A stretch of 64,000 nt of DNA. It comes from Prochlorococcus marinus XMU1404. Lineage in GTDB: Bacteria > Cyanobacteriota > Cyanobacteriia > PCC-6307 > Cyanobiaceae. Made by a program: the position numbers and the translations under genes. Below are positions 1-12,227 of this stretch, piece by piece. The stretch is from positions 372,001 through 436,000 of the forward strand of contig NZ_JAAORE010000001.1 in assembly GCF_017696175.1 (NCBI RefSeq), read 5' to 3'. The number at the start of each line of letters is the position of its first letter. Positions within the stretch are counted from its first letter, which is position 1. A model generated the notes under the pieces. That model saw only the letters and a program-made list of their open reading frames with translations. It searched no databases and was not told the DNA's origin.

Positions 1-126
1 ATGAAGTTTAAAATCCATTTTTTTTAATGATTGTGGGGTCGTTCCCCGTTACATATTCTTTTAGTTCTGATTAAAAAAAGTGATTCCATTTTTGGATTTT
101 TTATTTTTATTTGATCTTCAATTTTC

Positions 127-165
127 AAAAAAAATAAATAAAAGGAATCCAAAAATATGGATTCC
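127..165 (-). terminator. Rho-independent terminator after the TPR gene
   Basis: A 7-bp perfect inverted repeat (GGAATCC at 144-150, GGATTCC at 159-165) is followed on the minus strand by a long T-rich tract (complement of 127-143). It lies 40 bases past the stop of the minus-strand TPR gene, so it is a convincing intrinsic terminator for that transcript. A smaller TCCA/TGGA hairpin with a plus-strand T tract at about 84-101 might end a gene lying left of the window. Confidence 0.75.
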
Positions 166-204
166 TCTTAAAACTTCTAGGGTATTAAATTAATTTGAAT
201 TTTT

Positions 205-1137
205 TCAGTAGTTTTGTGATGATAAAAGACTATTTATGCTCTCTTTAACATTTCCAGCATTACTGCATTCATTAGCTTTTTTATTTGCATTCTTATATCC
301 AAGATCAGAAGCCTTTATCCAGTCCTGGCAAGCCTGATTATAATTTCCTTCGAGATTGTTATAGATTGCTCTTCCAAAGAATGCAAATCCATCATCCGAA
401 TTAATTTCAATGGCGTTTGAAAAATCATTTATTGCCCCATTATTGTCTCCGATCTGACCTTTTGAATATGCTCTTCCTATAAATGAATAATCATCTTCAG
501 GATCAATTTTTATCGCTTTTGAATAATCTGATATAGCTGCATAATAATCTCCTGCTTTTTCTTTTACATAGCCCCTAGCACTATATGCATATGCATCTTC
601 AGGATTAATCTCAATGGCAGAAGTTAAATCTTTAATTGCTCCTTTATGGTCACCAATGTCAGACTTTGCATAGCCTCTATTTATAAATGCTTTCTGATGC
701 TGATCATCAATTTCAATTGCTTTGTTGTAATCAGATATGGCACCGTAGAAATCTTTTAATTTATCTTTAGATAATCCACGATTATAAAAAGCTGAAGCTT
801 TTTCAGGGTTTATTTGAATAGCTCTTGTATAGTCCTGAATCGCACCTTCATGATCATTCAGATAACTTTTTGAAAGAGCTCTTTGAAAAAGTGCATAATA
901 ATCATTTGGATTATTTAAAAGAATTTTTGAATAATCAGTGATTGCTCCTCTATAGTCTTTTGAGGAATATTTTTTATCTCCACTTTCTATAAGAGATTCA
1001 TTATGGTTGTTGTGGCTGATATTTTTAGCGATAACAGTTTCAGTATTTTTGTTAAAAGTCTGATTCTGTTGAGCGAATAAATTACCGACTGGAATTAAAG
1101 ATAAACTTGCAGCGATAATAAGAAGTTGTTTTTTCAT
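205..1137 (-). CDS. Secreted tetratricopeptide-repeat (TPR) protein
   Basis: The 310-residue protein starts with a clear Sec signal peptide (hydrophobic core about residues 5-20, ending near FAQQ). It then consists of about six or seven consecutive 34-residue TPR units between residues 48 and 280, each carrying the A-x-x-D-Y/F-x-x-A-I pattern followed by an I-x-P-x-x turn. No enzymatic domain follows, so it is probably a periplasmic protein-binding scaffold. Its repeats closely resemble those in the N-terminal half of the TPR-CHAT protein at 6062-9178, suggesting shared ancestry. It is last in a minus-strand run, 32 bases after the unknown 154-residue gene, and a strong terminator follows it. 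TPR fold is sure; partner and role are unknown. Confidence 0.9.
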   Translation of the reverse strand: MKKQLLIIAASLSLIPVGNLFAQQNQTFNKNTETVIAKNISHNNHNESLIESGDKKYSSKDYRGAITDYSKILLNNPNDYYALFQRALSKSYLNDHEGAIQDYTRAIQINPEKASAFYNRGLSKDKLKDFYGAISDYNKAIEIDDQHQKAFINRGYAKSDIGDHKGAIKDLTSAIEINPEDAYAYSARGYVKEKAGDYYAAISDYSKAIKIDPEDDYSFIGRAYSKGQIGDNNGAINDFSNAIEINSDDGFAFFGRAIYNNLEGNYNQACQDWIKASDLGYKNANKKANECSNAGNVKESINSLLSSQNY

Positions 1138-1169
1138 GATTTTGTAAACTTTATTTGAACTGTTTTCTT

Positions 1170-1634
1170 TTAGTTCTCTTTTCTTTTCTTTGATTCCTTC
1201 AACATATTATTAATGAAGATTTGTCCTGCTTCAGCCATATCAAAATTTCCGAAGATATCTCTGATAATTGTTGCTGCTATAGCATTTATGTGAACAGCAT
1301 TCTTAAGATCAAGTACTTCATTAAATTCCTTAACATGGGCGTATCCCACATGGTCAACCGTGTACCAACAGGAACAACCTTTTACTGATTCAAGATCATC
1401 AGGATCGCCGTCAACATAACTGAAATTTGCAGTCTTATCATCATTAATGCTCATTAACATTGTTGGAACTTTATGCTCATCTTTAAATGGTGTGCATTCC
1501 CAATAAAGTAAAAATATATTATTAAAAGCCTTAGTCAGATGTTCTGGATTTACGCCCTGGTAAACATTAAATCTTTCGTCTGGTCTGTAAACAGCGCTAT
1601 TTGAAGTTTTGGTTTTGAAAAATAAGTTTTGCAT
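1170..1634 (-). CDS. Hypothetical protein, 154 aa, no recognised domain
   Basis: This is a soluble 154-residue protein with an ATG start, no signal peptide and no membrane segment. A C-S-C-W-Y stretch near residue 88 and a mostly helical, lysine-rich C-terminus ending KESKKRKEN are visible. I do not recognise the family. It sits 32 bases upstream of the TPR gene, and both genes share a TTTACAAA(A)TCATG start context, so they are probably co-transcribed. Normal amino-acid composition and context support a real gene. Confidence 0.75.
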   Translation of the reverse strand: MQNLFFKTKTSNSAVYRPDERFNVYQGVNPEHLTKAFNNIFLLYWECTPFKDEHKVPTMLMSINDDKTANFSYVDGDPDDLESVKGCSCWYTVDHVGYAHVKEFNEVLDLKNAVHINAIAATIIRDIFGNFDMAEAGQIFINNMLKESKKRKEN

Positions 1635-1699
1635 GATTTGTAAATTAATCTATTAATTCTTTGTTCTGAATTATCTAGACTGATTCCAAAAACTTCATA

Positions 1700-1727
1700 A
1701 AAAAACCACCATAAGTGGGCTTTTTTT
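1700..1727 (-). terminator. Bidirectional hairpin with A and T flanks
   Basis: CCAC at 706-709 of this kilobase pairs with GTGG at 715-718 across a 5-base loop. The stem is flanked by an A run on one side and a T run on the other, so it can act on either strand. On the minus strand it would stop read-through from the sigma-like/DUF1822-like operon before the 154-aa gene. The stem is short. Confidence 0.5.
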
Positions 1728-1772
1728 ATCTGAAAAAAATAAAATTAGATTGAAAAATTTTTATTATTTATA

Positions 1773-1886
1773 TTGGATTCAAATTGCGTTTTTGACTGTA
1801 TTTCACTAGTTGACCAAGTGGTCGAATTTCTAATTGAACGAACTAAGTATTTAGTTGTAAATGCAGAAGCAAAGGCAACTGTATAA
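1773..1886 (+). CDS. Candidate 37-residue small ORF
   Basis: A plus-strand reading frame with a TTG start and a TAA stop lies in the 338-base gap between two minus-strand genes. The frame opens after a TAG at 1746-1748. The inferred peptide contains SLVDQVVEFLIERTKYLVV, an amphipathic helix followed by a beta-like stretch, and then NAEAKATV. The local base composition is less AT-rich than the rest of the gap, which argues for coding. There is no Shine-Dalgarno sequence and I cannot name a family. The same bases form two dyads, so a structured RNA is the main alternative. Confidence 0.4.
   Translation: MDSNCVFDCISLVDQVVEFLIERTKYLVVNAEAKATV
1812..1856. repeat. Two adjacent short inverted repeats
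   Basis: GACCA-AG-TGGTC lies at 1812-1823 and AACTAA-GTAT-TTAGTT at 1841-1856, both perfect. They fall inside the candidate small ORF and could be operator dyads or consecutive RNA hairpins. Neither is followed by a T tract, so a terminator is unlikely. Confidence 0.45.
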
Positions 1887-1972
1887 TTCTAAATTTGGAT
1901 AAATTGGCATTAATAAAACCAATACTAAAGTTAAATTTCTTATTTTCTTATTAAATGGCTCCAAATTAAAAT

Positions 1973-3166
1973 TTACTCACATTTAATATTTTCAATAATT
2001 TCCTTTCGGGCTTTATCTATTACTTTAGAATCTGGCGCCTTTTCTGATAGAAGTAAAGAAAGAGAGGTATTCCTATTATCCTCTAAATTTTTATCTATAA
2101 ACTTAATCCAGGATCTTTTTGATTTGCCTAGTTTATTTTCTATATCACTGGTTTTTAAGAAAGTTTTCTTATCATCTATTTTTAGATTAATGATTACATT
2201 AGATCCCATTCCAGATGTTGATGGTCTCATTGATATCTGATAATTATTATCTTTACTAATTTCTTTAATAGGCCAATTTATTGGTCCTTCAATTTTATTT
2301 TTTGATGATGCTGTCTTACTCCAAACAATATTTCCATTTTCAGAAATTTTTATTTCATTAAGAGGTTTCAATGGATAAATTATAGGTTTATCAATATTGA
2401 TTAATGATTCAAGTTGATCATTTGCATTTGTTTTAGCAATAGGAGTAAGAAGGCATACTTTATTTTTTTGGCTTGTAAAGCTTCTTGTAAATGAAGTGAC
2501 TTCATAAGATACAGGAGATAATGTTGCTATCCCTCCAATCAACTTTGGCCTAAATATTTGAGGACCAAATAATGCAACTACAACAGTACCAGTAATAACG
2601 GAACTTGAAACTTTTAGTCTGTTTTTGATTGTATTAAAATTAATTAAAGATGATTCTTTTTCTATGAAAGTTCGCTCAATGGAATCAGAATTTAAAAGTC
2701 GCACAAATCTAAATAGCCTATCAATCCCACCTTTGAAATCATCTGTTAAAAGAGTTATTTCATTATTATTTATTTTTTTGTTCTTTATTAATTTCATAAA
2801 TTCGTCACTCTTTAAAACCCCTTTAAAATGAACAATATTTAATTCATCTTCAACTTGTACTGCTAAAAATAATTGTGGACCTTTTTTCTGAATTCTAGAG
2901 TTTTTTAATGGAATAGATATTTCCTCAGAAATCATTCCTGTTGATACTATCTGTATATCAAATTTATTAAGAATTATTGATCGCTCAGGATTATCTAAAT
3001 CTAATGATGGTCCAAGAGGTAAATCTAATTTTTTTTCTTTAAGAACTTTTTGTAGACCTTTTATGATTAGCTCTCTATTAGAAAGTTTAAATTCTTGGTC
3101 TAAATATATTGAGTCCTCGGGAATTGGAAAAGCTTGTGGAATATTATTCATATTTGATTGATTCAT
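1973..3166 (-). CDS. DUF1822-like membrane-anchored protein
   Basis: The protein has 397 residues. Its ATG overlaps the stop of the upstream sigma-like gene by four bases (ATGA), implying translational coupling. Residues about 100-165 carry a pattern I associate with cyanobacterial DUF1822 proteins: a 'LFLAVQVEDELNIVHFKGVL' strand pair, a short polar stretch, then a 'LFRFVRLL' helix. One hydrophobic segment near residues 190-205 may be a membrane anchor, followed by a probable extracytoplasmic beta-rich C-terminal half. Function is unknown for the family. In larger cyanobacteria DUF1822 genes frequently sit beside sigma-70-like and CHAT genes, which matches here. The assignment is by eye and remote; profile comparison would decide. 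Confidence 0.6.
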   Translation of the reverse strand: MNQSNMNNIPQAFPIPEDSIYLDQEFKLSNRELIIKGLQKVLKEKKLDLPLGPSLDLDNPERSIILNKFDIQIVSTGMISEEISIPLKNSRIQKKGPQLFLAVQVEDELNIVHFKGVLKSDEFMKLIKNKKINNNEITLLTDDFKGGIDRLFRFVRLLNSDSIERTFIEKESSLINFNTIKNRLKVSSSVITGTVVVALFGPQIFRPKLIGGIATLSPVSYEVTSFTRSFTSQKNKVCLLTPIAKTNANDQLESLINIDKPIIYPLKPLNEIKISENGNIVWSKTASSKNKIEGPINWPIKEISKDNNYQISMRPSTSGMGSNVIINLKIDDKKTFLKTSDIENKLGKSKRSWIKFIDKNLEDNRNTSLSLLLSEKAPDSKVIDKARKEIIENIKCE

Positions 3167-4473
3167 TTATTTATTTCCTCTTTAATAATTTTCCTTAGAA
3201 TAGATCCCTCTTCTCTTAGTTCCGTATTTAATAAATGATTCCTTAATCCATCTACAAATCTTTCTATTCCATCAGGATCATTTCTTAGTGATGCAAAATC
3301 ATTGATTCTTAGAAGTTCAAATGCAGCATCTTGGGCAATTTCTTCTGAAATTTTCTTTTCAGGAATCAACTTACTTACCCATGCCTGTTTATGGTCGCAT
3401 CTGCTTGCAATATCTCTTTGACTAAAACCATCTCCATATAATTTCCAAGCTTCTTTTCTTGATATATCTTTTTCCCATTTCTTTTTATCATTTTCAATAA
3501 GATTCTTAATTGTTTTTGAACAATAAATATTTAATATTTGATCTACTTTTTTTACAATTTCCTTACCTGAAAATTCATCATTATTCTCCTGAAAATTCTC
3601 TAATTGTGATTCTTCATTATTCTCAAAATTTCGCGCATTTTCAGTACCAGCAATATATTGTCTTAAGGCCTTATCTATAAGAAGTAAATTCTTAATGTTT
3701 TCTTGAGGAGGATCTAGTGAAAGCAGGAAATCTTCGTCTGGATACCATCCTGAGATTTTACCCGTCCGATTTCTGTAATTCTCTTTTTCTTTTTTGTATA
3801 TCTTTATATAAGATTCATATATCTTTTCAACCTCTTTTAATTTTAATTCACCCTCTCCGCACCTATTCCATGAATTAATAATTCTGGTTTTTGAACTATC
3901 TGCAATCAATGCCCAGGGACTAATTAAGAGAAGTCCACAACTTTTTAAATAAGATTTAAGTTCGTAATTTCCTTGTACTTTATTTTTTGTCCATGTAGAT
4001 AAATTGGATAATTTAGGATTGAATTCTGAGATTATTTCGGCACTGAATGGTTTTATGAATTTTCTTTCTTGCATATTCTTCACTGTATTCCAACAGAAAA
4101 CTTTTTTTAGAAACCTCCTTGGATTATTTGAGTCTGATGGCAAGCGAAGAAAATTTTCTCCATAGTCATCGAGCAAGATTATCAACATTTCATTTAAATT
4201 AATCTTTTCATATCCATTTGAAAACTGTTTATATATCAAATTAATTTTTTCATAAATTGGAAAACTAACCCTACATCTCAGTGCTAGAAGCGGATCTTTT
4301 GAATCCGGTTCTTTTTTAGTTATTTTTAAAAGTTCCTTATCAAAAGTATCAGAATATTTTTTTGATAAAAGTTCATGGTCTTTCTCAAAATTTGGATCAA
4401 AAAATAATTCCTTTCTCTTCACTTTCGAGGAAAAAGAATCAAGGAAATATATGTTGCAGTAATCCTTTGACAA
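3163..4473 (-). CDS. Cyanobacterial sigma-70-like DNA-binding protein (DUF1822-associated type)
   Basis: The 436-residue protein is probably a DNA-binding regulator. Residues near 355-375 (AWKLYGDGFSQRDIASRC) resemble a sigma region-4 helix-turn-helix. The middle, about residues 170-270, has an 'S-P-W-A-L-I' block followed by a basic helix and a 'Y-K-K-E-K' stretch. I match this to the 'SDWALLR' block of cyanobacterial sigma-70-family proteins encoded next to DUF1822. No convincing region 2 is seen, so promoter melting ability is uncertain. The start is TTG at 4473; an in-frame stop lies 12 bases upstream, so little extension is possible. The DnaB-like gene ends 31 bases upstream and the DUF1822-like gene overlaps downstream. 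A ParB-type or unrelated HTH protein is the alternative. Confidence 0.6.
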   Translation of the reverse strand: MSKDYCNIYFLDSFSSKVKRKELFFDPNFEKDHELLSKKYSDTFDKELLKITKKEPDSKDPLLALRCRVSFPIYEKINLIYKQFSNGYEKINLNEMLIILLDDYGENFLRLPSDSNNPRRFLKKVFCWNTVKNMQERKFIKPFSAEIISEFNPKLSNLSTWTKNKVQGNYELKSYLKSCGLLLISPWALIADSSKTRIINSWNRCGEGELKLKEVEKIYESYIKIYKKEKENYRNRTGKISGWYPDEDFLLSLDPPQENIKNLLLIDKALRQYIAGTENARNFENNEESQLENFQENNDEFSGKEIVKKVDQILNIYCSKTIKNLIENDKKKWEKDISRKEAWKLYGDGFSQRDIASRCDHKQAWVSKLIPEKKISEEIAQDAAFELLRINDFASLRNDPDGIERFVDGLRNHLLNTELREEGSILRKIIKEEINK

Positions 4474-4504
4474 AACGAGATTAAACTACTTGTAATATCT
4501 TAAG

Positions 4505-5398
4505 CTAAATTGCAAGATTTCTAAATCTTGTATATTGAGGTTCAAATAATAATTTGACTGTACCAACTGGCCCATTACTCTGTTTGGTAACAATGATTTC
4601 TGTTATACCTCTATCCTCAGTTTCTGGGTTATAGTATTCGTCCCTATAAATAAAAGCTATCAAATCAGCTTTATTTTCAATTACTTCTGAGTCTCTAATA
4701 TCACTGAGCATAGGCCTTTTGTTTAGTCTTTTTTCTAATTCTCTGTTTAATTGAGATGTAATTATTACCGGTACTTCAAGATTTATAGATAAAATTTTTA
4801 AATCGTTCAGGATTTTTGAAAGCTCATCTTCTCTAGAAATATTTTGACCTAAAGTCTTATCTTCTAATAGTTGAAGAAAATCAATAACTATTACACCAAG
4901 ATTTTTTTTATGATTATTTTTTACCTCCTCACAAAATTGGTAAATTTCTGAAACTTGTATCGTTGATTTATCAATTAGATATATTGGGCTCTTACTATAT
5001 GAATTTATTGCCTCTCCTAAAAATGGCCATTCATCCTGAGTTAATCTTCCTGTTCTAAGTCGACCAGATTCTATGCCAGTGTCCATTGAAAGTAATCTAT
5101 AAGAAAGCATTTTTTTGCTTGTCTCCAGGGAGAAAAAACATACTGGTAAATTATGAAATTGGCCTATATTTTTTGCGATATTTAGTACAAATGAGGTCTT
5201 ACCCATTGAAGGACGTCCTCCAATAATATAAAGATTTCCTGGAGATATTCCTTGAGTCATCGCATCTAAATCATAAAAATTCATCGCTTTGCCAGCTTCT
5301 GAATTGCCAAGTGATCTTGATTCAATTTCTTCAAATACTTTGTTTAATAAACCATCTATTTTTGATTCATCAGTATTGAGTGATTGTTTGTTTTTCAT
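4505..5398 (-). CDS. DnaB C-terminal-domain (RecA-fold) ATPase without the N-terminal domain
   Basis: The 297 residues cover only the replicative-helicase motor domain. Walker A (GGRPSMGKTS) is near residue 61-70, Walker B (VIVIDFLQLL) near 175-184, a sensor-like SQLNRELEKR near 216, and the DnaB motif 'LSDIRDSEVIENKAD' near 232-246. True DnaB is about 450-470 residues and has an N-terminal collar domain, absent here. This is therefore a paralogue rather than the chromosomal helicase. It might be a small helicase or an ATPase regulator in the island. It starts at ATG 5398 and lies 31 bases before the sigma-like gene, in one likely operon. Phage DnaB-like or RadA-like proteins are alternatives. 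Confidence 0.8.
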   Translation of the reverse strand: MKNKQSLNTDESKIDGLLNKVFEEIESRSLGNSEAGKAMNFYDLDAMTQGISPGNLYIIGGRPSMGKTSFVLNIAKNIGQFHNLPVCFFSLETSKKMLSYRLLSMDTGIESGRLRTGRLTQDEWPFLGEAINSYSKSPIYLIDKSTIQVSEIYQFCEEVKNNHKKNLGVIVIDFLQLLEDKTLGQNISREDELSKILNDLKILSINLEVPVIITSQLNRELEKRLNKRPMLSDIRDSEVIENKADLIAFIYRDEYYNPETEDRGITEIIVTKQSNGPVGTVKLLFEPQYTRFRNLAI

Positions 5399-5426
5399 CT
5401 TTAAAGTGCAAATTTTAAATTAATTT

Positions 5427-5612
5427 TTATCCAAGCCATTCTCTAAACGAATAAAGAGTTGCTGGTATCCAAAATAAAAATAAATGTGGAATAAAAAAGC
5501 AAGGAATTAATCCAATAATTAAACCAAAAGTAATTGAAAAAAAGTTATTTTTTTTGGAAGAGGTCTTTCTTTTTGAATATTCCTTTAAATACTCGTTAAA
5601 TTCTTTTTTCAT
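5427..5612 (-). CDS. Small membrane protein, 61 aa
   Basis: A basic N-terminus (MKKEFNEYLKEYSKRKTSSKK) leads into about 35 hydrophobic residues with prolines, likely a helical hairpin, ending FREWLG. I recognise no family. It sits 28 bases upstream of the DnaB-like gene on the same strand and shares the AAATCATG start context with three other genes of this block. It is probably real but short. Confidence 0.55.
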   Translation of the reverse strand: MKKEFNEYLKEYSKRKTSSKKNNFFSITFGLIIGLIPCFFIPHLFLFWIPATLYSFREWLG

Positions 5613-5639
5613 GATTTTTATATATGAATTTTATTTTTA

Positions 5640-5657
5640 GGCTCCATTATTGGAGCC
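5640..5657. terminator. GC-rich hairpin between two small genes
   Basis: GGCTCC and GGAGCC are perfectly complementary around a 6-base loop. The hairpin lies 10 bases past the stop of the minus-strand 106-aa gene. There is no T run after it on that strand, so it may be a weak terminator or an mRNA-stabilising 3' end. A second small dyad (GAGCA/TGCTC, 6006-6018) lies on the other side of the 106-aa gene. Confidence 0.4.
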
Positions 5658-5667
5658 TTTAAAATAT

Positions 5668-5988
5668 CTAATTAAGAGGTCGCTTGAAATTGTAATAGTG
5701 AAAAGTAACACCATTTGAAGAAACATCTTGATTAACTACATGACTTACTAATTCCCATCCTGCAGCACCAAGCTGATTAAGTATTTCGTGAAGAGTTGGA
5801 ACAATCACGTCATCACCAAAATTATTTCTCCAGGAGCGTATTCTTTCTCCATCAATGTCTAAGAGATTTATTTCTTGAGTTATTCCTCTACCTTTGTAGT
5901 CAAGACGAATATGTTTATATTCATAAGTAGTTAAACCTTGAATATTCTTTTGATCATTAGGGATCAAATCTAAAGTTGAGTTTGTCAT
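5668..5988 (-). CDS. DUF4177-like small protein
   Basis: The protein has 106 residues. It shows the DUF4177 layout: an N-terminal 'Y-E-Y-K-H-I-R' strand, a 'LNQLGAAGWELVSHV' motif near residues 70-84, and a final 'Y-N-F-K-R-P' strand. Such proteins are small alpha/beta domains of unknown function. The gene follows the TPR-CHAT gene by 73 bases on the same strand and starts in an AAATCATG context. The family call rests on the strongly conserved GxxGWELV pattern. Confidence 0.7.
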   Translation of the reverse strand: MTNSTLDLIPNDQKNIQGLTTYEYKHIRLDYKGRGITQEINLLDIDGERIRSWRNNFGDDVIVPTLHEILNQLGAAGWELVSHVVNQDVSSNGVTFHYYNFKRPLN

Positions 5989-6061
5989 GATTTAATTTGA
6001 TTGTTGAGCATTTTGCTCTTTACAAATTAATATAATTCTCAAATTTTTTAATGATTCCAAA

Positions 6062-9000
6062 TTACCAATTAATTGGTCTCCAATCTCCATTTAATTGAAA
6101 TGCAGCCCATACATTTGGATGTTGCCAAGCTTGAATAGGGTGCTCTCTAAATTCTTTTTGAGTATTTGATAATGCTTTTGATCTGCTCTCTCCTGATTTA
6201 AGTTTTAAATAAAAACTTTCCATAAATTCTGCTGTTGCCTTATCATCCACTTCCCAAAGCGAAAGTAGGCTTGATCGTGCACCTGCAACTGCAATTGCTC
6301 TTTTTAGTCCGTAAACTCCTTCCCCAGATTGCAGATCACCCTGACCTGATTCACAACCAGAAACGACTACTAATTCTGTGCCATTCCAATTTAATTTACT
6401 TACCTCTAGAGCAGTAAGATATCCATCGTCCTTTAAATTTTTATCAGGATAATTTGCTCCTGCTAAAACTATTCCACTTCTTAATAAAGGATTTTCGATT
6501 CTTTTATTGTTGGTTATGGAATTTGAAAATATATTTTCTGAAAATAAATTTTCATTTTTATTATCACCTATGTAAAAAGAATGGGTAGCAATATGAAGGA
6601 TTTTTGGAGACTCTTCCATTTGAATATTTAAAGCAGATGCTTCATCCTCTAGAAATAATTTGGCATTAGTAATTTTTGATATGATATCTGCTTCTTTTTT
6701 TGTTCCAGGTAAAGAACCCCATAATCGGTTTCTTTGATCAAATGATCTTTTTTGCTCATTAAAGTTTTTTGGTGATAAGTTTTTTCTGCTATTGCTTGAG
6801 TTTTTTCCAGATAAGTTGAAATTTGGATTCGCAAAAACTATTGATTGTTTATTAATTAAATTCTTTTCTTTATTTAAAGTTATTAGTTCTCTTCCAGTAG
6901 TTAATAATCTAAGTTGAAAAATATCTCCCAATAAATCTGTTTTATTAAAGCTTCCAACTGCAGCAAAAGGGACCTTATTTAATTCACTATCAGGGGAAAT
7001 AAATAAGGTTTTTTTATTTTTAATATATTTCTCTAGGGGCTTGATAATTTTTGAACCTAATTCATGCCAGATATCTTGTGCATCAATTAAAGACTGTTCA
7101 GAGGAAACTAAGCCAAGGGATATTAACTGATCGATTTCAGCTGCGCTTCCTAAATCTATACTTTCAACATTATTATTTGGGAATAAAATTAGAGCTTGAT
7201 ACTTTGCATCTCCCCAAGTATTTTCGTCCATACTCTGATCAGGATCGATAGAAACAAAAGGTCTATATTTCTGAAATTCAATCAGTACTGCATCGTCAGG
7301 TATTTTTTTTGATATATCGCTCAAACTAAATATTTTTGATTTTAATTGTGGAAGTGATTTATATAATTCCAACTCTAATTTTTCTTTCTGAATCTTCAAT
7401 TGATCAATAGATTTTTTATTACCCTGATTTGTTGAAGAAAGCTGATTTGTTAAATCTTTAATCTTTTCCATTAGGTCTTTTTCAGAACCTTTTAAGCTCG
7501 CTAATGTGATTTGCTTCTTTTCGATCTCCTCTAGTAATCCATGTCTATTTAATCTTGCAAATAATGCAAGATTCTTCCCTAGTGGATGAATATCCGTAGC
7601 TGTAAAAATTGCTTGATATGAAATTCCTAATGTCTTAATAAACTGTTCCCTTTTTGAGATTGGTAAAAATGGAATTTGATCTTGAATATATTTAAATTGG
7701 ATAGCTAAACTTCTTCTTAAATAATAGTCAGTTTTTTCATAATCTTTTTCTTTAAAATAAACCATCGCTACATTTAGTAGAGGTTGTATCAAATAGTGGC
7801 TTTCTTTCCCAAAGACTTCTTCATATAAATTTAATGCCTGATTATGATAGATTTTTGCTTTATTATTTTCTCCGTCCCACCAATAAGCGTAGCCAAGTAA
7901 TTCTGATAAAGATAAGTCAGGCTTGTCTTGTTTGCTGTTTTTAATTTGTAAATCATAAAGCCTTTTTAATATCCTTTGGGCCTTATTAAAATTCTTTTCT
8001 TTGAATGCTATGTTTGAACGAATTAATTGTCCTTCTAATGATCTGAATTTAAAAAGTTTTTTGGCATCCTCATAATTATTGTCTGAAAAAATATAAATGT
8101 CCGCTAGATATTTCTTACAATCGTTTGTTTTAAGAGAATTTTCTAATTTTATTTTTTCAGATTCCTTAAGACATTTTTTAAGGCTTTGTTTAGCTCTATC
8201 ATTATCCCCAATGGTTCCATAATATATAGCCTCTTTATAAAATAGATCTAAATAATCTTCATTTTTTTCTTTAACATTCTTCGATAAACTTTTTCCCTTA
8301 TTTATTAGAGGTAGTACTTCTTGATAAATACCATTTGATATATAAGTGTTTGTTAAATAATTAATTGCGAAAAGGATTTCTTCTGGCTCCCCAAAATCTA
8401 TAATTGCTTCATAATCTGCTATCGCACCTTCTAAATCTCCAAGTTGATATTTACCGAACGCTCTGTCTAAGTAGCTTTTTGTATAAGTTGGGTCAAGCTT
8501 TATTGCATTTGTATTATCTATTATTGATCCTTTTATATCATCTATCTGAAGTTTTAAATAGGCTCTCCAATTTAGGAAATAACTATTCGGATTGATATTA
8601 ATTGCTTCTGTAAAATCTTTAATTGCGGAATCAAAATCCTTTAATTGATTTTTAGATGCACCTCTACCAGAATACGCATCTTCATTATTGGGATTAAGTT
8701 CTATAACTTTGGAATAGTCTTCAATAGATCCTTCATAATCTTCCAATATATATCTTAAATATCCTCGGAAGAAATAAGCTTCTTCATATTCGGGATTTAT
8801 TTTTATTGCAGATGAATAATCTGAAATAGCTCTCTCGTAATTTTCATTTTTTTCATGAAGATAACCTCTCCAGAAAAAAGATTTTTCCCAGGGATTTGGA
8901 TTTAATTCAATTGCTTTTGAATAATCTGCAATCGCTCCTAAAAAGTCTCCAAGAAATTCTTTACTTATCGCCCTGTAGTGATAACCTCTCCAGTTATCTG

Positions 9001-9178
9001 GATTTGATTTTATATATTTATTAAAATCATCCAAAGCATCTGAATATTTTTTCTTAGAGATATTTTCTTTGCCGCTTTCAAAAAAAGATTCCTTGGTTTC
9101 CGCTTCAAGAGCTTTGAAACTAAAAATATTTGCAGGACTGGAAAAAAATAAAAATAATAATAAAAGATACTTAATCAT
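6062..9178 (-). CDS. Secreted TPR-CHAT (caspase-fold) protein
   Basis: This is a 1038-residue multidomain protein. A signal peptide occupies about residues 1-25. About seven classical TPR units follow between residues 30 and 270, then divergent TPR-like helical repeats to about 500, then a coiled segment. A C-terminal CHAT domain runs from about 620 to the end. The CHAT catalytic pair is intact: His near 866 in 'ILHIATHSF' and Cys near 942 in 'VVVSGCESGQG', with the downstream 'LLSLWEVDD' and 'W-x-H-P-x-x-W-A-A-F' motifs. CHAT domains are cysteine proteases of the caspase/separase fold, and TPR arrays usually recruit the substrate or activator. The gene starts five bases after the zinc-peptidase gene, so the two are surely co-expressed. 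The substrate is unknown. Confidence 0.93.
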   Translation of the reverse strand: MIKYLLLLFLFFSSPANIFSFKALEAETKESFFESGKENISKKKYSDALDDFNKYIKSNPDNWRGYHYRAISKEFLGDFLGAIADYSKAIELNPNPWEKSFFWRGYLHEKNENYERAISDYSSAIKINPEYEEAYFFRGYLRYILEDYEGSIEDYSKVIELNPNNEDAYSGRGASKNQLKDFDSAIKDFTEAININPNSYFLNWRAYLKLQIDDIKGSIIDNTNAIKLDPTYTKSYLDRAFGKYQLGDLEGAIADYEAIIDFGEPEEILFAINYLTNTYISNGIYQEVLPLINKGKSLSKNVKEKNEDYLDLFYKEAIYYGTIGDNDRAKQSLKKCLKESEKIKLENSLKTNDCKKYLADIYIFSDNNYEDAKKLFKFRSLEGQLIRSNIAFKEKNFNKAQRILKRLYDLQIKNSKQDKPDLSLSELLGYAYWWDGENNKAKIYHNQALNLYEEVFGKESHYLIQPLLNVAMVYFKEKDYEKTDYYLRRSLAIQFKYIQDQIPFLPISKREQFIKTLGISYQAIFTATDIHPLGKNLALFARLNRHGLLEEIEKKQITLASLKGSEKDLMEKIKDLTNQLSSTNQGNKKSIDQLKIQKEKLELELYKSLPQLKSKIFSLSDISKKIPDDAVLIEFQKYRPFVSIDPDQSMDENTWGDAKYQALILFPNNNVESIDLGSAAEIDQLISLGLVSSEQSLIDAQDIWHELGSKIIKPLEKYIKNKKTLFISPDSELNKVPFAAVGSFNKTDLLGDIFQLRLLTTGRELITLNKEKNLINKQSIVFANPNFNLSGKNSSNSRKNLSPKNFNEQKRSFDQRNRLWGSLPGTKKEADIISKITNAKLFLEDEASALNIQMEESPKILHIATHSFYIGDNKNENLFSENIFSNSITNNKRIENPLLRSGIVLAGANYPDKNLKDDGYLTALEVSKLNWNGTELVVVSGCESGQGDLQSGEGVYGLKRAIAVAGARSSLLSLWEVDDKATAEFMESFYLKLKSGESRSKALSNTQKEFREHPIQAWQHPNVWAAFQLNGDWRPINW

Positions 9179-9183
9179 TTATT

Positions 9184-9942
9184 TCAGAATTTGAATCTTG
9201 TATCAACTTTTGAGGTTTTTAGATTTATGCCCAGAAGACCTGAAGCATCTTTTTTGTATGGTGAGGATTCAAGATCGACTGATTTACCAGATCCCCTTGT
9301 TCTTGTGAATGCTTTATAAAGAGGATCATCTATATCTCCCTTAACTAATTTTTCTATGGAAGCGTAGGAACAATCAGCATCAACTCTCCCCATCCCTGAT
9401 AAAAGTGCATAGGTTCTTTGAGCTCCCGATCCATGAGTTTTATCTCCTATTGAATAAGCAACAGATGACATTTCCAGAATATTTTCTCGGGTGACTCCTA
9501 ATTCTTTATTTCCTTTCTGAATAAAATAACCTGCAAGACAATCAGCCTGAAGTTCATGATTGGGATCTTTTAATCTTATCTCCAGAGCATTTTGCAAGGC
9601 ATGGGCGAATTCATGAGCAACTACATATGCAACGCTGGAGTTTCCGAACGCCTTTATAAAAGTTTTAAGTTGAACGGGGTCAAGAACTATTGTGTGATCG
9701 GGTGGGCAATAATAAGATCCGGCGACGTCAAACCCCTCATTTGATCCTTTACATCCTCCTCCAAATAATCTCGTTCCACTTGGCACCGTAATTACCTGAG
9801 GAGGAAACCATTTCTTCAGATTCTCATCATCATTCCATGTCTTAATTAAATAAACTGTTGTTTTTTCAATTAAATCTGGAATGTTGGAAGCTTTTGCTTC
9901 ATAAGGAAAAATTAAAATAAATATTGCTAAAAGAACCTTCAT
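9184..9942 (-). CDS. Secreted neutral zinc metallopeptidase (YpfJ/Zn_peptidase family)
   Basis: The protein has about 252 residues and a hydrophobic signal sequence (residues 1-18). It carries the family hallmarks 'YYCPPDHTIVLD' near 80, the zinc-binding 'VVAHEFAHALQ' (HExxH) near 110 and the third-ligand region 'ELQADCLAGYF' near 131. The substrate of this family is unknown. ATG at 9942 is preferred to the TTG one codon upstream. It is the first gene of the minus-strand block and is followed five bases later by the TPR-CHAT gene, so two putative extracytoplasmic proteases are encoded together. Confidence 0.88.
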   Translation of the reverse strand: MKVLLAIFILIFPYEAKASNIPDLIEKTTVYLIKTWNDDENLKKWFPPQVITVPSGTRLFGGGCKGSNEGFDVAGSYYCPPDHTIVLDPVQLKTFIKAFGNSSVAYVVAHEFAHALQNALEIRLKDPNHELQADCLAGYFIQKGNKELGVTRENILEMSSVAYSIGDKTHGSGAQRTYALLSGMGRVDADCSYASIEKLVKGDIDDPLYKAFTRTRGSGKSVDLESSPYKKDASGLLGINLKTSKVDTRFKF

Positions 9943-10049
9943 CAAGGAGGAAAAGTATTGTTCTATATATTAGTTAATTTATTTATTGAGTTATAAGAAA
10001 TTAAGAAATCATAATAATATATAAGATCTATTATCTACCTTTAAAACAG

Positions 10050-10077: not shown

Positions 10078-10138
10078 ATTCTGAATAATTTCTTTGTGCG
10101 ATAGTGGTAATCTCTTTGATACCAAGCTATCCCGCGAG

Positions 10139-10210
<72 letters not shown>

Positions 10211-10220
10211 AATTTTAAAG

Positions 10221-10302
10221 TGGGCCGGGTTGGATTTGAACCAACGTAGGCAGAGCCAGCGGATTTACAGTCCGCCCCCTTTAACCACTCGGGCACCGAC
10301 CC
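10221..10302 (-). tRNA. tRNA-Tyr (anticodon GTA)
   Basis: This is an 82-nt class II tRNA on the minus strand. The acceptor stem GGGTCGG/CCGGCCC contains one T-G pair, the anticodon loop is CTGTAAA, the extra arm is long, and the T arm is TTGG-TTCAAAT-CCAA. It begins the tRNA-Tyr/tRNA-Thr transcription unit. Confidence 0.95.
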
Positions 10303-10401
10303 CCACTATTTGAACTTATCAGTTAATGGACACTTTGTGTGAAATTGTTTTGGTTTTTTTGCTTCTTTCTAGATAGCATTTGTAAAGAAATGACTTTATT
10401 G

Positions 10402-10845
10402 ATGATGAATATTTTATTGATAAATGGACCAAATTTAAATTTATTGGGGACTAGAGAACCTGAAATATATGGTAATAAAACATTGAGCGATATAGAAAAA
10501 GATCTAACAAAAGTTGCTAAAGAAAAGAGTATTAATCTTGAATGTTTTCAAAGTAATCACGAAGGAGAAATAGTAGATAAAATACAAGAGTCTGTAAAAA
10601 GTATCCAAGCTATTCTTATAAATGCTGGCGCTTTTACTCATACCTCGATTTCCATTAGAGATGCTTTAATTGGATCAAAAATTCCGTTTGTAGAGTTACA
10701 TATTTCAAATATTTTCAGTAGAGAAGATTTTCGTAAAGAATCTTTTCTTACAGATAAAGCTATAGGAATTATTAGTGGATTCGGAATAACAAGTTATTCC
10801 TTAGCTCTTGAAGGAATTATTGGATATTTAAGTAGTAAAGATTAA
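10402..10845 (+). CDS. aroQ: 3-dehydroquinate dehydratase, type II
   Basis: It dehydrates 3-dehydroquinate to 3-dehydroshikimate in aromatic amino-acid synthesis. It carries the family N-terminus '[20 protein letters not shown]', the '[11 protein letters not shown]' loop with substrate-binding Asn and His, and '[12 protein letters not shown]'. At about 147 residues it has the normal type II length. ATG at 10402 or 10405 is chosen because family members begin 5-8 residues before NGPN; a GTG at 10339 would add an unsupported hydrophobic tail. Its stop abuts the next start. Confidence 0.95.
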
Positions 10846-11454
10846 ATGCTAGTCGATTTTAAAAGGCCTTCTTCTCATATTAAATATTTATCCTCATTAA
10901 CCTCAGATGAGTGGATCAAACTCGCTTTATCTAATCCAATAGATATTCTTATTGACCATGCTCATTGTGAAAGAAAAGCAGCAGGAGTGGCTATTCAATT
11001 GATGTTTAGATATCCATCAGAACCAAATCTGGCAGAAGTTCTAAGTCCAATAGCGAGAGAGGAATTAGAGCATTTTGAAAAAATACTTTATTTTTTAAAG
11101 GATCTTGGACATTCGCTTGAGTCCTTAAAACCGCCTCCATATGGAGCTGAATTGTCCAAGAATATAAGAAAGGAAGAGCCCTATAGAATGCTTGATAGTT
11201 TTTTGATCGCAGGACTTATTGAAGCAAGAAGTCATGAAAGATTAGCCTTGCTTGCGCTGAATTCTGAAAAAGAATCTTTTAAAGCCCTTTATGAGTCTTT
11301 GCTTGAGAGTGAAGCAAGACACTTTGGGATTTATTGGAAACTTGCGCAAAAAAAATTCTCTAAAAATCAAACTTTCAAAAGGTTAGAGGAATTGTCTGAA
11401 ATTGAGTCAGAAATCCTTGCTGAGACTTTTATGATGCCAAGGGTCCACAGCTAG
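10846..11454 (+). CDS. miaE: MiaE-like tRNA 2-methylthio-N6-isopentenyladenosine hydroxylase
   Basis: The 202-residue ferritin-like protein has the four-helix diiron pattern: Glu in 'DHAHCERKAAG', the E/ExxH pair 'AREELEHFE', then 'EARSHERL' and 'ESEARHFGIY'. MiaE hydroxylates the isopentenyl group of ms2i6A37 in tRNAs reading UNN codons, using oxygen. It starts directly after the aroQ stop, so the two genes are coupled. Picocyanobacterial MiaE homologues are common, but tRNA specificity here is inferred. Confidence 0.88.
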   Translation: MLVDFKRPSSHIKYLSSLTSDEWIKLALSNPIDILIDHAHCERKAAGVAIQLMFRYPSEPNLAEVLSPIAREELEHFEKILYFLKDLGHSLESLKPPPYGAELSKNIRKEEPYRMLDSFLIAGLIEARSHERLALLALNSEKESFKALYESLLESEARHFGIYWKLAQKKFSKNQTFKRLEELSEIESEILAETFMMPRVHS

Positions 11455-11471
11455 AAATAATTAAATTAAGA

Positions 11472-12227
11472 ATGTTAATAAAACAATTTTTAACAGTATT
11501 TAAAGGTTATAAAAGAGATTCAGCATCATTGACCGTCGTTGGGGTTGGGCCTGGAGATCCATCACTTTTAACAATTGCTGCTGTAGATGCAATAAAAAAA
11601 GCTAAAGTTATAGTTTTTCCAATATCAGATGATAATAAAAAGAGTTTTGCTGCAGAAATAGTCAAGAAATATACCAAATTTAAAAAAAATGTACCTATCA
11701 TCTTTCCAATGGCCCGAGAGGGTTTTGATCCTGATGAAATATGGTCAAATGCTGTGGGGAAAATTGTGAAATTCATAAAAAATGGTGAATCAGTTGTTTT
11801 ACTTTGTCTTGGCGATACTTCGCTATTTGCAAGCTCTTCGAATATTTTGAGGATAATAAAAAAAACTTATCCCGAAATTATCACCAAAACTATACCCGGG
11901 ATTTCTTCTCTGTCAGCAACAGCAGCATTGAATGATTTTGATTTAGTCAAAAAAGGAGAGACCTTGATAATAAAAGAATGCCCTTCTTTAAATTCAGAAT
12001 TAACATCCCTTATCACGGAAAGTAGAGGAAGTAAAACTGTTTTGGCAATTATGAAAGTTGGGAAAAGATGGAATTTAGTAAGAGAAATCTTAAAAAAAGA
12101 GGACATTATTAATAAATCACTTATAGCTTTAAGTGTTGGTATGCCTAATCAAATTATTCAATATGCATCTCAATATAAAAAGGACTTCATGCCTTATTTC
12201 TCTTTAATTTTGATAAGGTTTGATTAA
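11472..12227 (+). CDS. cobI: Precorrin-2 C20-methyltransferase
   Basis: This 251-residue SAM-dependent tetrapyrrole methylase opens with the signature 'VVGVGPGDPSLLTIAA' near residue 22 and has a 'CLGDTSLFASS' SAM-binding loop near 117. It methylates C20 of precorrin-2 in corrinoid (pseudocobalamin) synthesis. A second corrinoid-related gene, CobT-like, lies at 59065. The stop overlaps the next ATG by one base (TAATG). Confidence 0.9.
   Translation: MLIKQFLTVFKGYKRDSASLTVVGVGPGDPSLLTIAAVDAIKKAKVIVFPISDDNKKSFAAEIVKKYTKFKKNVPIIFPMAREGFDPDEIWSNAVGKIVKFIKNGESVVLLCLGDTSLFASSSNILRIIKKTYPEIITKTIPGISSLSATAALNDFDLVKKGETLIIKECPSLNSELTSLITESRGSKTVLAIMKVGKRWNLVREILKKEDIINKSLIALSVGMPNQIIQYASQYKKDFMPYFSLILIRFD

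Follow-up and report, generated by a model that had tools for sequence, protein, structure and literature searches.

Within a 64,000-nucleotide stretch of the Prochlorococcus marinus XMU1404 genome (1.67 Mb), referred to here as the window, we find that the genes for a sigma-70-like protein, a DUF1822-like protein and a TPR-CHAT protease belong to a conserved unit, and that a promoter-like motif, GGAATCA-N12/13-RGAAC-D-A, is tied to the sigma gene and clusters around the unit. The unit is movable and not fixed in Prochlorococcus; its setting is a hypervariable island that also bears defence genes and adjoins two tRNA genes. To explain these observations we tentatively put forward, with a confidence just short of an even chance, a transmembrane switch of sigma factor, anti-sigma factor and protease that controls a local island regulon. 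The genes concerned are the minus-strand genes within positions 1-9945 of the window; they are described in transcription order, with the starts of open reading frames (ORFs) taken as the longest possible. The core features are:

6062..9178, minus strand: TPR-CHAT caspase-like protease, 1038 aa, probably exported; PF12770 E 1e-58 at aa 705-1032
3163..4473, minus strand: putative divergent sigma-70-type factor, 436 aa; linked by profile to the canonical sigma-like family, with sigma factors as the best structural rows for its predicted model
1973..3166, minus strand: DUF1822-like fusion, 397 aa, proposed anti-sigma factor; N domain at about aa 20-170, predicted membrane span, Ig (immunoglobulin)-like C domain at about aa 208-395
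2555..2611, minus strand: predicted membrane span at the fusion joint, aa 186-204, from hydropathy

The sigma-like and DUF1822-like genes overlap by 4 bp (ATGA), and the TPR-CHAT gene ends 1.6 kb before the sigma-like start on the same strand, both as described in an earlier annotation made from the nucleotide letters alone (the sequence-only reading); two genes that lie between them, encoding a DUF4177-like protein and a DnaB C-terminal-domain-only ATPase, were absent from that annotation.

Conservation of the three-gene unit

A protein search of 251 genomes drawn from the family found a sigma-like gene in 20 and none in 231. In each of the 20 resulting loci, a DUF1822 or DUF1822-like gene lies directly 3' of the sigma gene on the same strand, and this arrangement recurs in 14/14 loci of a named Prochlorococcus collection, two of which come from the same genomes as two of the family loci. 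CHAT is found in all 20 sigma-positive genomes and in 61 of the 231 others (p 2.5e-11). Counting strong CHAT hits only, with CHAT-CHASE2 hits excluded, 17 of the 20 genomes have one within 10 kb of the sigma gene where 0.3 would be expected, and in the remaining three (G250, G018 and G105) the sigma contig carries no counted CHAT match; among the named loci, a match to the TPR-CHAT profile lies within 10 kb in 14/14. The association can be closer still, with the CHAT and DUF1822-like genes of L025/L100 sharing 4 bp and, in L027/L102, the CHAT gene beginning 8 bp after the DUF1822-like gene. The sequence-only reading had proposed that the three families form a unit, and had named a neighbourhood frequency no higher than chance as a refutation; these counts bear the unit out. 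Its picture of a streamlined genome keeping all three genes is wrong, because the unit is not fixed, being present in 2 of the 16 genomes of the genus in the family draw, and because it sits in a hypervariable island.

The closest named loci are Prochlorococcus records whose sigma protein is 91-92% identical over the best tblastn segment. In two close relatives, L093 and L094, the DUF1822-like gene is immediately followed by another TPR-CHAT gene (L093:10146-14126, L094:12507-16331). At 1635-1972 of the window, only about the first 80 bp of this second gene remain before a join to the next stretch, so it has been lost by deletion.

A probable, divergent sigma-70-type factor

The 436-aa protein is supported as a divergent sigma-70-type factor by sequence comparison and a predicted structure, the former being reached through the distant cyanobacteria that carry canonical DUF1822 (PF08852, found in 129 of 194 genomes of the phylum). 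Directly upstream of DUF1822 in 12 of 20 canonical neighbourhoods lies a protein of 386-452 aa that is matched by our sigma-like profile (2e-7 to 1e-14), and a profile built from those 12 adds L087, L088, L090 and L091, bringing the neighbourhoods with a relative upstream to 16/20. Profile-profile comparison of the sigma-like family with this canonical protein of about 390 aa gives an hhalign probability of 98.4% (E 8e-15). All three of the 12 canonical proteins that were scanned (L073, L078, L082) match Sigma70_r4 (PF04545) over the cut-off; L091, which is more distant, matches too, and L088 gives no match. Against PDB sequences, the canonical profile (A5) finds 1l0o_C in region 4 (9e-8) and, weakly, 8b3z_A in region 2 (6e-4, at 84-144). 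It is through this family that the region 4 helix-turn-helix is reached for the window's protein.

The AlphaFold2 model of the sigma-like protein has a mean predicted local distance difference test (pLDDT) score of 82.5, from 15 sequences. Rows 1-26 of its VIA list are sigma factors, with a best Z of 7.8; two of these rows are taken to be sigma factors from their entry names, and the absence of other folds in VIA lists carries no meaning. Residues 13-180 superpose on sigma-S at 3.3 Å over 105 residues with a Z of 7.6, which is inside the background range for helical models. Since a Z of this size can arise by chance in such models, we weigh the sequence first and the fold second. Foldseek rows for the model with E above 1 were discarded. 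Direct scans with PADLOC and PHROGs gave no match for the sigma-like or the DUF1822-like protein, and among viral contigs the sigma-like alignment gave 43 pattern matches and no relative.

A DUF1822-like protein fused across a predicted membrane span

The partner of the sigma-like protein is a fusion with a predicted membrane span at its joint. Columns 4-171 of its profile align with a separate gene of about 350 aa in larger picocyanobacterial genomes (100%), and columns 208-402 with another separate gene of about 236 aa (99.9%). In these split loci a CHAT-CHASE2 gene comes right after the first-half gene (12/12), and the second-half gene follows it in 10/12, the copy of L042 being a fragment at the end of its contig; in L031 the contig ends before this gene and L041 shows none. 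Among the draw's 8 fused loci, none has a match to the CHAT-CHASE2 profile, and the gene is missing from beside the DUF1822-like gene. The window thus holds a compact version of a wider cyanobacterial module, as the sequence-only reading had it, with the halves kept apart by CHAT-CHASE2 in split relatives and the canonical sigma/DUF1822 pair in distant cyanobacteria. In the tree of sigma proteins, fused rows fall on one side of a branch with support of 69/78, split rows with 99/96 and canonical rows with 100/100 (four split loci, L034, L039, L040 and L042, were left out, their sigma ORF being truncated or embedded in a larger one); given the modest support for the fused rows, a single fusion is compatible with the tree and not firmly shown by it.

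How, then, does this protein relate to DUF1822? With both forms in the profile, its N-terminal half aligns with canonical DUF1822 over 239 columns (hhalign 92.9%, E 4e-7; at most 0.2% for four unrelated control profiles), and the split form alone reaches 80.5%. PF08852 itself gives no match in the window's genome, and the protein has no Pfam match over the curated cut-off. We therefore consider the N domain a homologue of canonical DUF1822 with moderate confidence, from profile comparison, and call the protein DUF1822-like rather than a member.

In 21/21 full-length fusion rows (19 distinct genomes), the joint carries a hydrophobic segment whose first residue falls at aa 183-191, and the stand-alone second-half gene has a signal-like start at the matching place in 5/5 rows. 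The AlphaFold2 model (pLDDT 79.5) contains two domains flanking a low-confidence stretch at 172-206. The modelled N domain may have a fold like that of PD-(D/E)XK nucleases (D212, I-Ssp6803I, Hjc and PvuII, with Z 5.8-7.2 over 102-121 residues; Foldseek E 0.01 at best), and the catalytic residues of that fold are not conserved among 31 sequences, in which E122 is the sole acidic residue kept in at least 85% and no lysine or aspartate is. The C domain is Ig-like in the model. A by-eye TR...C pattern had suggested DUF928 (PF06051) for the C domain; we rejected this, as hhalign gives 0.1-0.2% against 30 DUF928 proteins, and PF06051 has no match in the window's genome at E 10. Arg228, after the span, is invariant in 26/26 aligned rows. 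Because the five stand-alone relatives retain this residue as well, its role may be structural, and we do not claim it as a protease cut site.

A TPR-CHAT protease with a signal-like N-terminus

The CHAT domain of the TPR-CHAT protein scores 199 bits against PF12770 (cut-off 24), and the protein is the sole CHAT match at E 0.001 in the genome. Its catalytic pair would be His866 (HIATHS) and Cys942, the choice between the two histidines of HIATHS following the pattern of the clan. Both motifs are intact in 41/46 aligned rows, the other five being truncated at a contig end or lacking a CHAT domain. Among TPR-CHAT rows of at least 700 aa, a hydrophobic segment starts within the first 40 residues in 39/46, the window's protein included, and the protease is thus probably exported. 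These N-terminal segments agree with a published account of a picocyanobacterial island, which lists secreted CHAT genes among its contents (PMC7522525). Elsewhere, one genome has, about 48 kb away from its sigma gene, a further CHAT gene (L161, G126:C19:117000-124500) with two sites of the motif described below within 1.2 kb.

A promoter-like motif tied to the sigma gene

The motif was first noticed by eye among 58 upstream regions of unit genes. Allowing spacers of 10-19, GGAATC-N-GAAC occurs at 129 sites in 32 loci (553,944 bp), 124 of which have a spacer of 14 or 15. These 124 sites divide into 89 in the 20 discovery loci (mean of 0.9 in dinucleotide-shuffled sequence) and 35 in 12 split loci that were unused for discovery (shuffled mean 0.6). 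Five sigma-negative flanks contain none (shuffled 0.27), and 20 canonical loci contain 2 (shuffled 1.0). Columns outside the search pattern are conserved as well: an A follows GGAATC in 114/124 sites, and an A stands at GAAC+2 in 120/124. The motif and tree counts leave out L025 and L027, whose genomes are already represented by L100 and L102. They retain near copies (L096/L097, L098/L099, L024/L095 and L023/L093/L094), so the sites are not independent.

A same-strand ORF starts within 250 nt downstream of 96 of the 124 sites, at a median distance of 33 nt. The targets include DUF1822 or DUF1822-like genes (12), DnaB_C genes (7), TPR genes (7), the 154-aa gene (3) and others (64); three more match the TPR-CHAT profile and are 633, 271 and 246 aa long, with no CHAT domain shown. 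In the window, the sites are:

6033..6058, minus strand: variant motif (GAAT for GAAC), 5' of the DUF4177/DnaB_C/sigma/DUF1822-like genes; found by the genome-wide match, with a position weight matrix score of 14.2, below the other sites
3217..3242, minus strand: motif within the sigma gene, near its 3' end and 52 nt upstream of the DUF1822-like start
1661..1687, minus strand: motif 28 nt before the 154-aa gene
1171..1197, minus strand: motif 35 nt before the TPR gene
62..87, minus strand: motif 45 nt before a 141-aa gene that extends past the window's left edge

Across whole genomes, the pattern GGAATCAN{12,13}RGAACDA, which was written after viewing loci from some of the same sigma-positive genomes, has 84 sites in the 20 sigma-positive genomes and 47 in the 231 sigma-negative ones (p 1.4e-19), with at least 2 sites in 17/20 and 3/231, respectively. 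Because the discovery loci share genomes with the sigma-positive set, it is the split loci and the contrast with sigma-negative genomes that carry weight. In the window's own genome, a relaxed pattern (GAAY) gives 10 matches, 8 of them within 11 kb (367058-378058), and a reversed control pattern gives none. The two matches outside the island, one just before a 129-aa ORF and one inside a 405-aa ORF, are taken as chance.

The site inside the sigma gene, before the DUF1822(-like) start, recurs in 14/32 loci. All 11 loci that encode R-N-H at this position use [AC]GG-AAT codons (log10 P -9 from codon usage, with relatedness ignored), a bias that suggests selection on the DNA; five K-N-H loci are one base off the motif at this place, and the remaining loci have no motif there.

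A ShosT-like gene to the left of the window, in the same island, is also preceded by the motif with GAAT instead of GAAC, as is the DUF4177 gene, and the upstream regions of the two genes are similar over about 110 columns, leader included. In both regions (L157:15040-15220 for the ShosT-like gene; 5900-6075, minus strand, in the window for the DUF4177-like gene) the leader contains a small inverted repeat, GAGCA...TGCTC, and the two proteins have the first residues M-x-N-S-T-L-D-L-I-P-N-D in common; translation of ShosT therefore probably begins downstream of the start of its longest ORF.

A proposed envelope-to-transcription switch

In the mechanism that we propose, the 436-aa sigma factor would read its own promoter, composed of GGAATCA, 12-13 nt and RGAAC-D-A. 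The DUF1822-like protein would restrain it, with the cytoplasmic N domain binding the sigma factor, the single span serving as its anchor and the Ig-like domain lying outside. The exported TPR-CHAT protease, sensing through its TPR array, might cut the exposed part of the DUF1822-like protein, whose further breakdown would free the sigma factor. Once freed, the sigma factor would activate its own operon, would raise the DUF1822-like protein from the promoter inside the sigma gene as a negative feedback, and would activate local island genes that vary by genome; here, these would encode small proteins and TPR proteins, possibly along with the ShosTA-like pair. We infer each of the three central relations (sigma factor to motif, DUF1822-like protein to sigma factor, protease to DUF1822-like protein), and the anti-sigma logic would fit the gene overlap, the hydrophobic segment at the joint, the N-terminal segments of most TPR-CHAT proteins and the motif before DUF1822. 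The idea of the sequence-only reading, that a DUF1822 membrane protein might read the state of the protease and pass it on to the sigma-like factor, is plausible and, with an exported protease and a membrane-spanning DUF1822-like protein, would be consistent with the predicted topology.

Several points weigh against this proposal. It draws on sequence and predicted structure, and its steps of binding, cleavage and transcription are predictions. Direct Pfam and NCBIfam scans name CHAT, TPR, DnaB_C and the peptidase at the locus (DUF4177 under its cut-off), and place the sigma-like and DUF1822-like proteins in 0 families. By the criterion that the sequence-only reading had set itself, profile support, a plain scan alone would refute the sigma region 4 and DUF1822 labels it had given them; both stand one remove away, on the profile-profile matches and on the canonical partners that match Sigma70_r4. 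Of the 22 PDB sequences matched by the canonical profile, 10 are other helix-turn-helix regulators, the window family's own sigma profile finds no sigma factor among PDB sequences (one unrelated chain at 0.32), Foldseek with the sigma model returns nothing at E 0.001, and helical models that have no true relative can still attain a VIA Z of 7.8. The homology of the N domain to canonical DUF1822 drops to 6.2% for the fused form alone. The span is marginal, with an apparent insertion energy of +0.5 to +3.6 kcal/mol (custom script), the AlphaFold2 model has no confident helix there, and DUF1822 of the split relatives is without a clear span, so the split form would need a partner. TPR-CHAT is on the opposite strand in 5/14 named loci (L101, L103-L106), and no motif site was assigned to the start of a confirmed CHAT gene, the nearest being 275 nt before one in L026. 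Finally, 28/124 sites have no start within 250 nt, the sigma-positive genome G250 has no motif site, and the motif's reader could be some other DNA-binding protein from the island.

Relation to known systems

Kaur et al. 2021 report that cyanobacterial genes for extracytoplasmic function (ECF) sigma factors and DUF1822 neighbour EACC2-caspase genes, of which some include CHASE2, and they propose that the caspase is activated together with a sigma-mediated response (PMC8195603). A joint function has therefore already been put forward for the larger neighbourhood, where the sequence-only reading, correct as to the families being neighbours, had held that none was established. The likeness lies in a sigma factor with DUF1822 and a caspase-type protease that are proposed to signal together, and we presume that the CHAT-CHASE2 gene following DUF1822 in our split relatives (12/12) is their EACC2-caspase-CHASE2 (PMC8195603). 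The window's form differs from that neighbourhood in lacking a CHAT-CHASE2 gene, in the fusion of the DUF1822 N domain to an Ig-like domain behind a predicted span, in a nearby protease that is a TPR-CHAT protein with an N-terminal signal-like segment, and in the common motif and local regulon described here. No paper on the fusion, motif or regulon was found among the open-licence papers searched; we thus regard the fusion, the motif and the candidate regulon as new, whereas the sigma/DUF1822/caspase neighbourhood is already published (PMC8195603).

The mechanism borrows from Craspase and from RseA-type control, the latter also mentioned in the available text of PMC10028731. In Craspase, as described there, the TPR-CHAT protease Csx29 cuts the sigma inhibitor Csx30, with CASP-sigma as the sigma factor. 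The output arm of this type III-E system and our unit would have in common a TPR-CHAT protein, a two-domain sigma inhibitor (here proposed) and a sigma factor with targets in its own locus (PMC10028731). However, Csx29 is activated through an RNA-guided complex, whereas the protease here looks exported and the proposed inhibitor would span the membrane (PMC10028731). There is no guide complex among the named genes here (no search for Cas7-11 was made), and the DUF1822-like profile (A4) finds no chain in the PDB sequence set at E 1, Csx30 included.

Similarly, the ECF54 group has CHAT, subtilase and carboxypeptidase genes in its context, and its sigma factors are predicted to be controlled by neighbouring CHAT proteases, a likeness that we draw by context; unlike in our proposal, control without an anti-sigma factor is proposed there, in the text available (PMC8999054). 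The main text of a survey of cyanobacterial sigma factors, so far as available, does not contain 'CHAT' (PMC11119718). CHAT caspase relatives beside sigma factors are thus in print, but the cyanobacterial ones come without target genes in the cited papers.

A fixed motif that is enriched where the sigma gene occurs and clustered around it supplies a concrete candidate regulon that can be tested. In the RseA/sigma-E system, a membrane anti-sigma factor undergoes regulated proteolysis by the protease DegS. Our proposal resembles it in the adjacent genes for sigma factor and partner, the proposed N-in single-span topology, the exported protease and the self-controlled promoter. It differs in that the DUF1822-like protein has no Pfam domain match (0 families, and hence no known anti-sigma domain), that its cytoplasmic domain would be PD-(D/E)XK-like without conserved catalytic residues, and that the protease is a CHAT enzyme and not DegS. 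The Prochlorococcus fusion suggests a possible route from an extracytoplasmic protease to a cytoplasmic sigma factor, and may link a caspase-like protease with the regulation of defence genes in a highly abundant photosynthetic organism.

Alternative explanations

Could the sigma factor and motif constitute a real local regulon in which the DUF1822-like protein acts as a positive adaptor or envelope-sensing co-regulator, with TPR-CHAT an effector or surface protease that merely travels along? We consider this rather unlikely. It would account for the lack of motif sites at confirmed CHAT starts and for CHAT genes that switch strand and side among loci, and it sits well with the secreted CHAT genes listed in a picocyanobacterial island (PMC7522525, in part) and with the CHAT genes of 61/231 sigma-negative genomes. 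The presence of CHAT in every sigma-positive genome, within 10 kb in 17, argues against mere co-travelling, as do the overlapping or nearly abutting CHAT and DUF1822-like genes of L025/L100 and L027/L102.

Another reading, which we also hold to be rather unlikely and which is compatible with the proposed switch, makes the unit a layer of an anti-virus defence island: the protease would sense infection at the envelope and the sigma factor would activate defence effectors, ShosTA for example, much as the output arm of type III-E CRISPR does but with no RNA guide. Defence genes do adjoin the unit. To the left of the window in the same island lie ShosT-like (E 3e-17) and ShosA-like (E 2e-68) genes and a candidate PDC-M33 defence system whose cluster includes DUF6339 proteins and a C5 methyltransferase (L157, about -15300 to -2850 relative to window position 1); the ShosT-like gene has the motif variant and the 110-column upstream similarity described above, and type I restriction genes are present in the island of L029. 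In L030 and L101, motifs precede pairs of an AAA ATPase and a VWA-metallopeptidase (DUF2201), and L104 has the AAA part among its neighbouring genes. Yet such islands gather defence genes whatever their regulation, PADLOC has no match for the sigma, DUF1822-like, TPR-CHAT or zinc-peptidase proteins and weak ones for the DnaB-type (mad8, 1e-5) and TPR proteins, and among 10 flank genes scanned from seven other loci, the clear defence genes are only the two of L029.

Slightly less likely still is the boldest combination, in which Prochlorococcus and Synechococcus islands would carry a self-contained immune switch from envelope to transcription: an exported caspase-like protease would cut a DUF1822-Ig-like membrane anti-sigma factor, and the freed sigma factor would fire an exchangeable defence regulon (ShosTA-like genes, AAA/VWA pairs) from one island-borne promoter code, as a protein-sensing counterpart of Craspase.

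That the genes are linked merely by a common hot-spot island, with no joint function, is very improbable: the site is hypervariable and the unit is absent from 14/16 genus genomes in the draw, but the gene order is conserved in 20/20 and 14/14 loci, the same sigma/DUF1822 pair occurs in distant cyanobacteria, and the motif is tied to the sigma gene.

Neighbouring genes and the island

In transcription order, the locus reads zinc peptidase, TPR-CHAT, DUF4177-like, DnaB C-domain ATPase, sigma-like, DUF1822-like, 154-aa protein and TPR protein. Besides the core, its features are:

10138..10302, minus strand: tRNA-Thr and tRNA-Tyr, border of the variable island, from tRNA gene positions
9184..9945, minus strand: zinc peptidase (PF04228, E 5e-13), probably exported; N-terminal hydrophobic segment; 5 bp before the TPR-CHAT gene
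5668..5988, minus strand: DUF4177-like small protein; PF13783 22.3 bits, under its 25-bit cut-off
4505..5398, minus strand: DnaB C-terminal-domain-only ATPase, 297 aa; PF03796 E 6e-84
1170..1634, minus strand: 154-aa protein downstream of a motif, without a Pfam match
205..1137, minus strand: TPR protein downstream of a motif, probably exported; PF00515 E 4e-35; N-terminal hydrophobic segment

Relatives of the zinc peptidase occur near the unit in L025, L028, L040, L093, L094, L096-L100 and L105, and the 154-aa gene and its motif are retained in L093 and L094. A DnaB C-domain gene lies near the unit in 10/32 non-duplicate loci (L023, which is the window, L026, L029, L030, L093, L094 and L096-L099). 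The window's genome also encodes a full-length DnaB, 64% identical to the short form over aa 17-296. Short paralogues are found in genomes without a sigma gene too (G026, and G129 and G184, both incomplete), so we rejected the DnaB C-domain gene as a core part and regard it as optional. The short paralogue, of about 300 aa, is possibly an island replication or sensing gene.

The unit lies between the two tRNA genes and a variable stretch of about 26 kb, whose ORFs, bar one of 152 aa, have no match in the roughly 18-20 kb beside the same flank in five relatives; these five have the genes at 10339-12227 and not the island. At L157:1-3543 (minus strand), a protein of more than 1100 aa contains two stretches which, judged by eye from the translation, resemble sigma region 4 (RERVRQIE) and the C-terminal domain of the RNA polymerase alpha subunit. 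In L026 (2594-6889), a phage-capsid-like gene and an AAA_25 gene stand close to the unit, as in a phage satellite.

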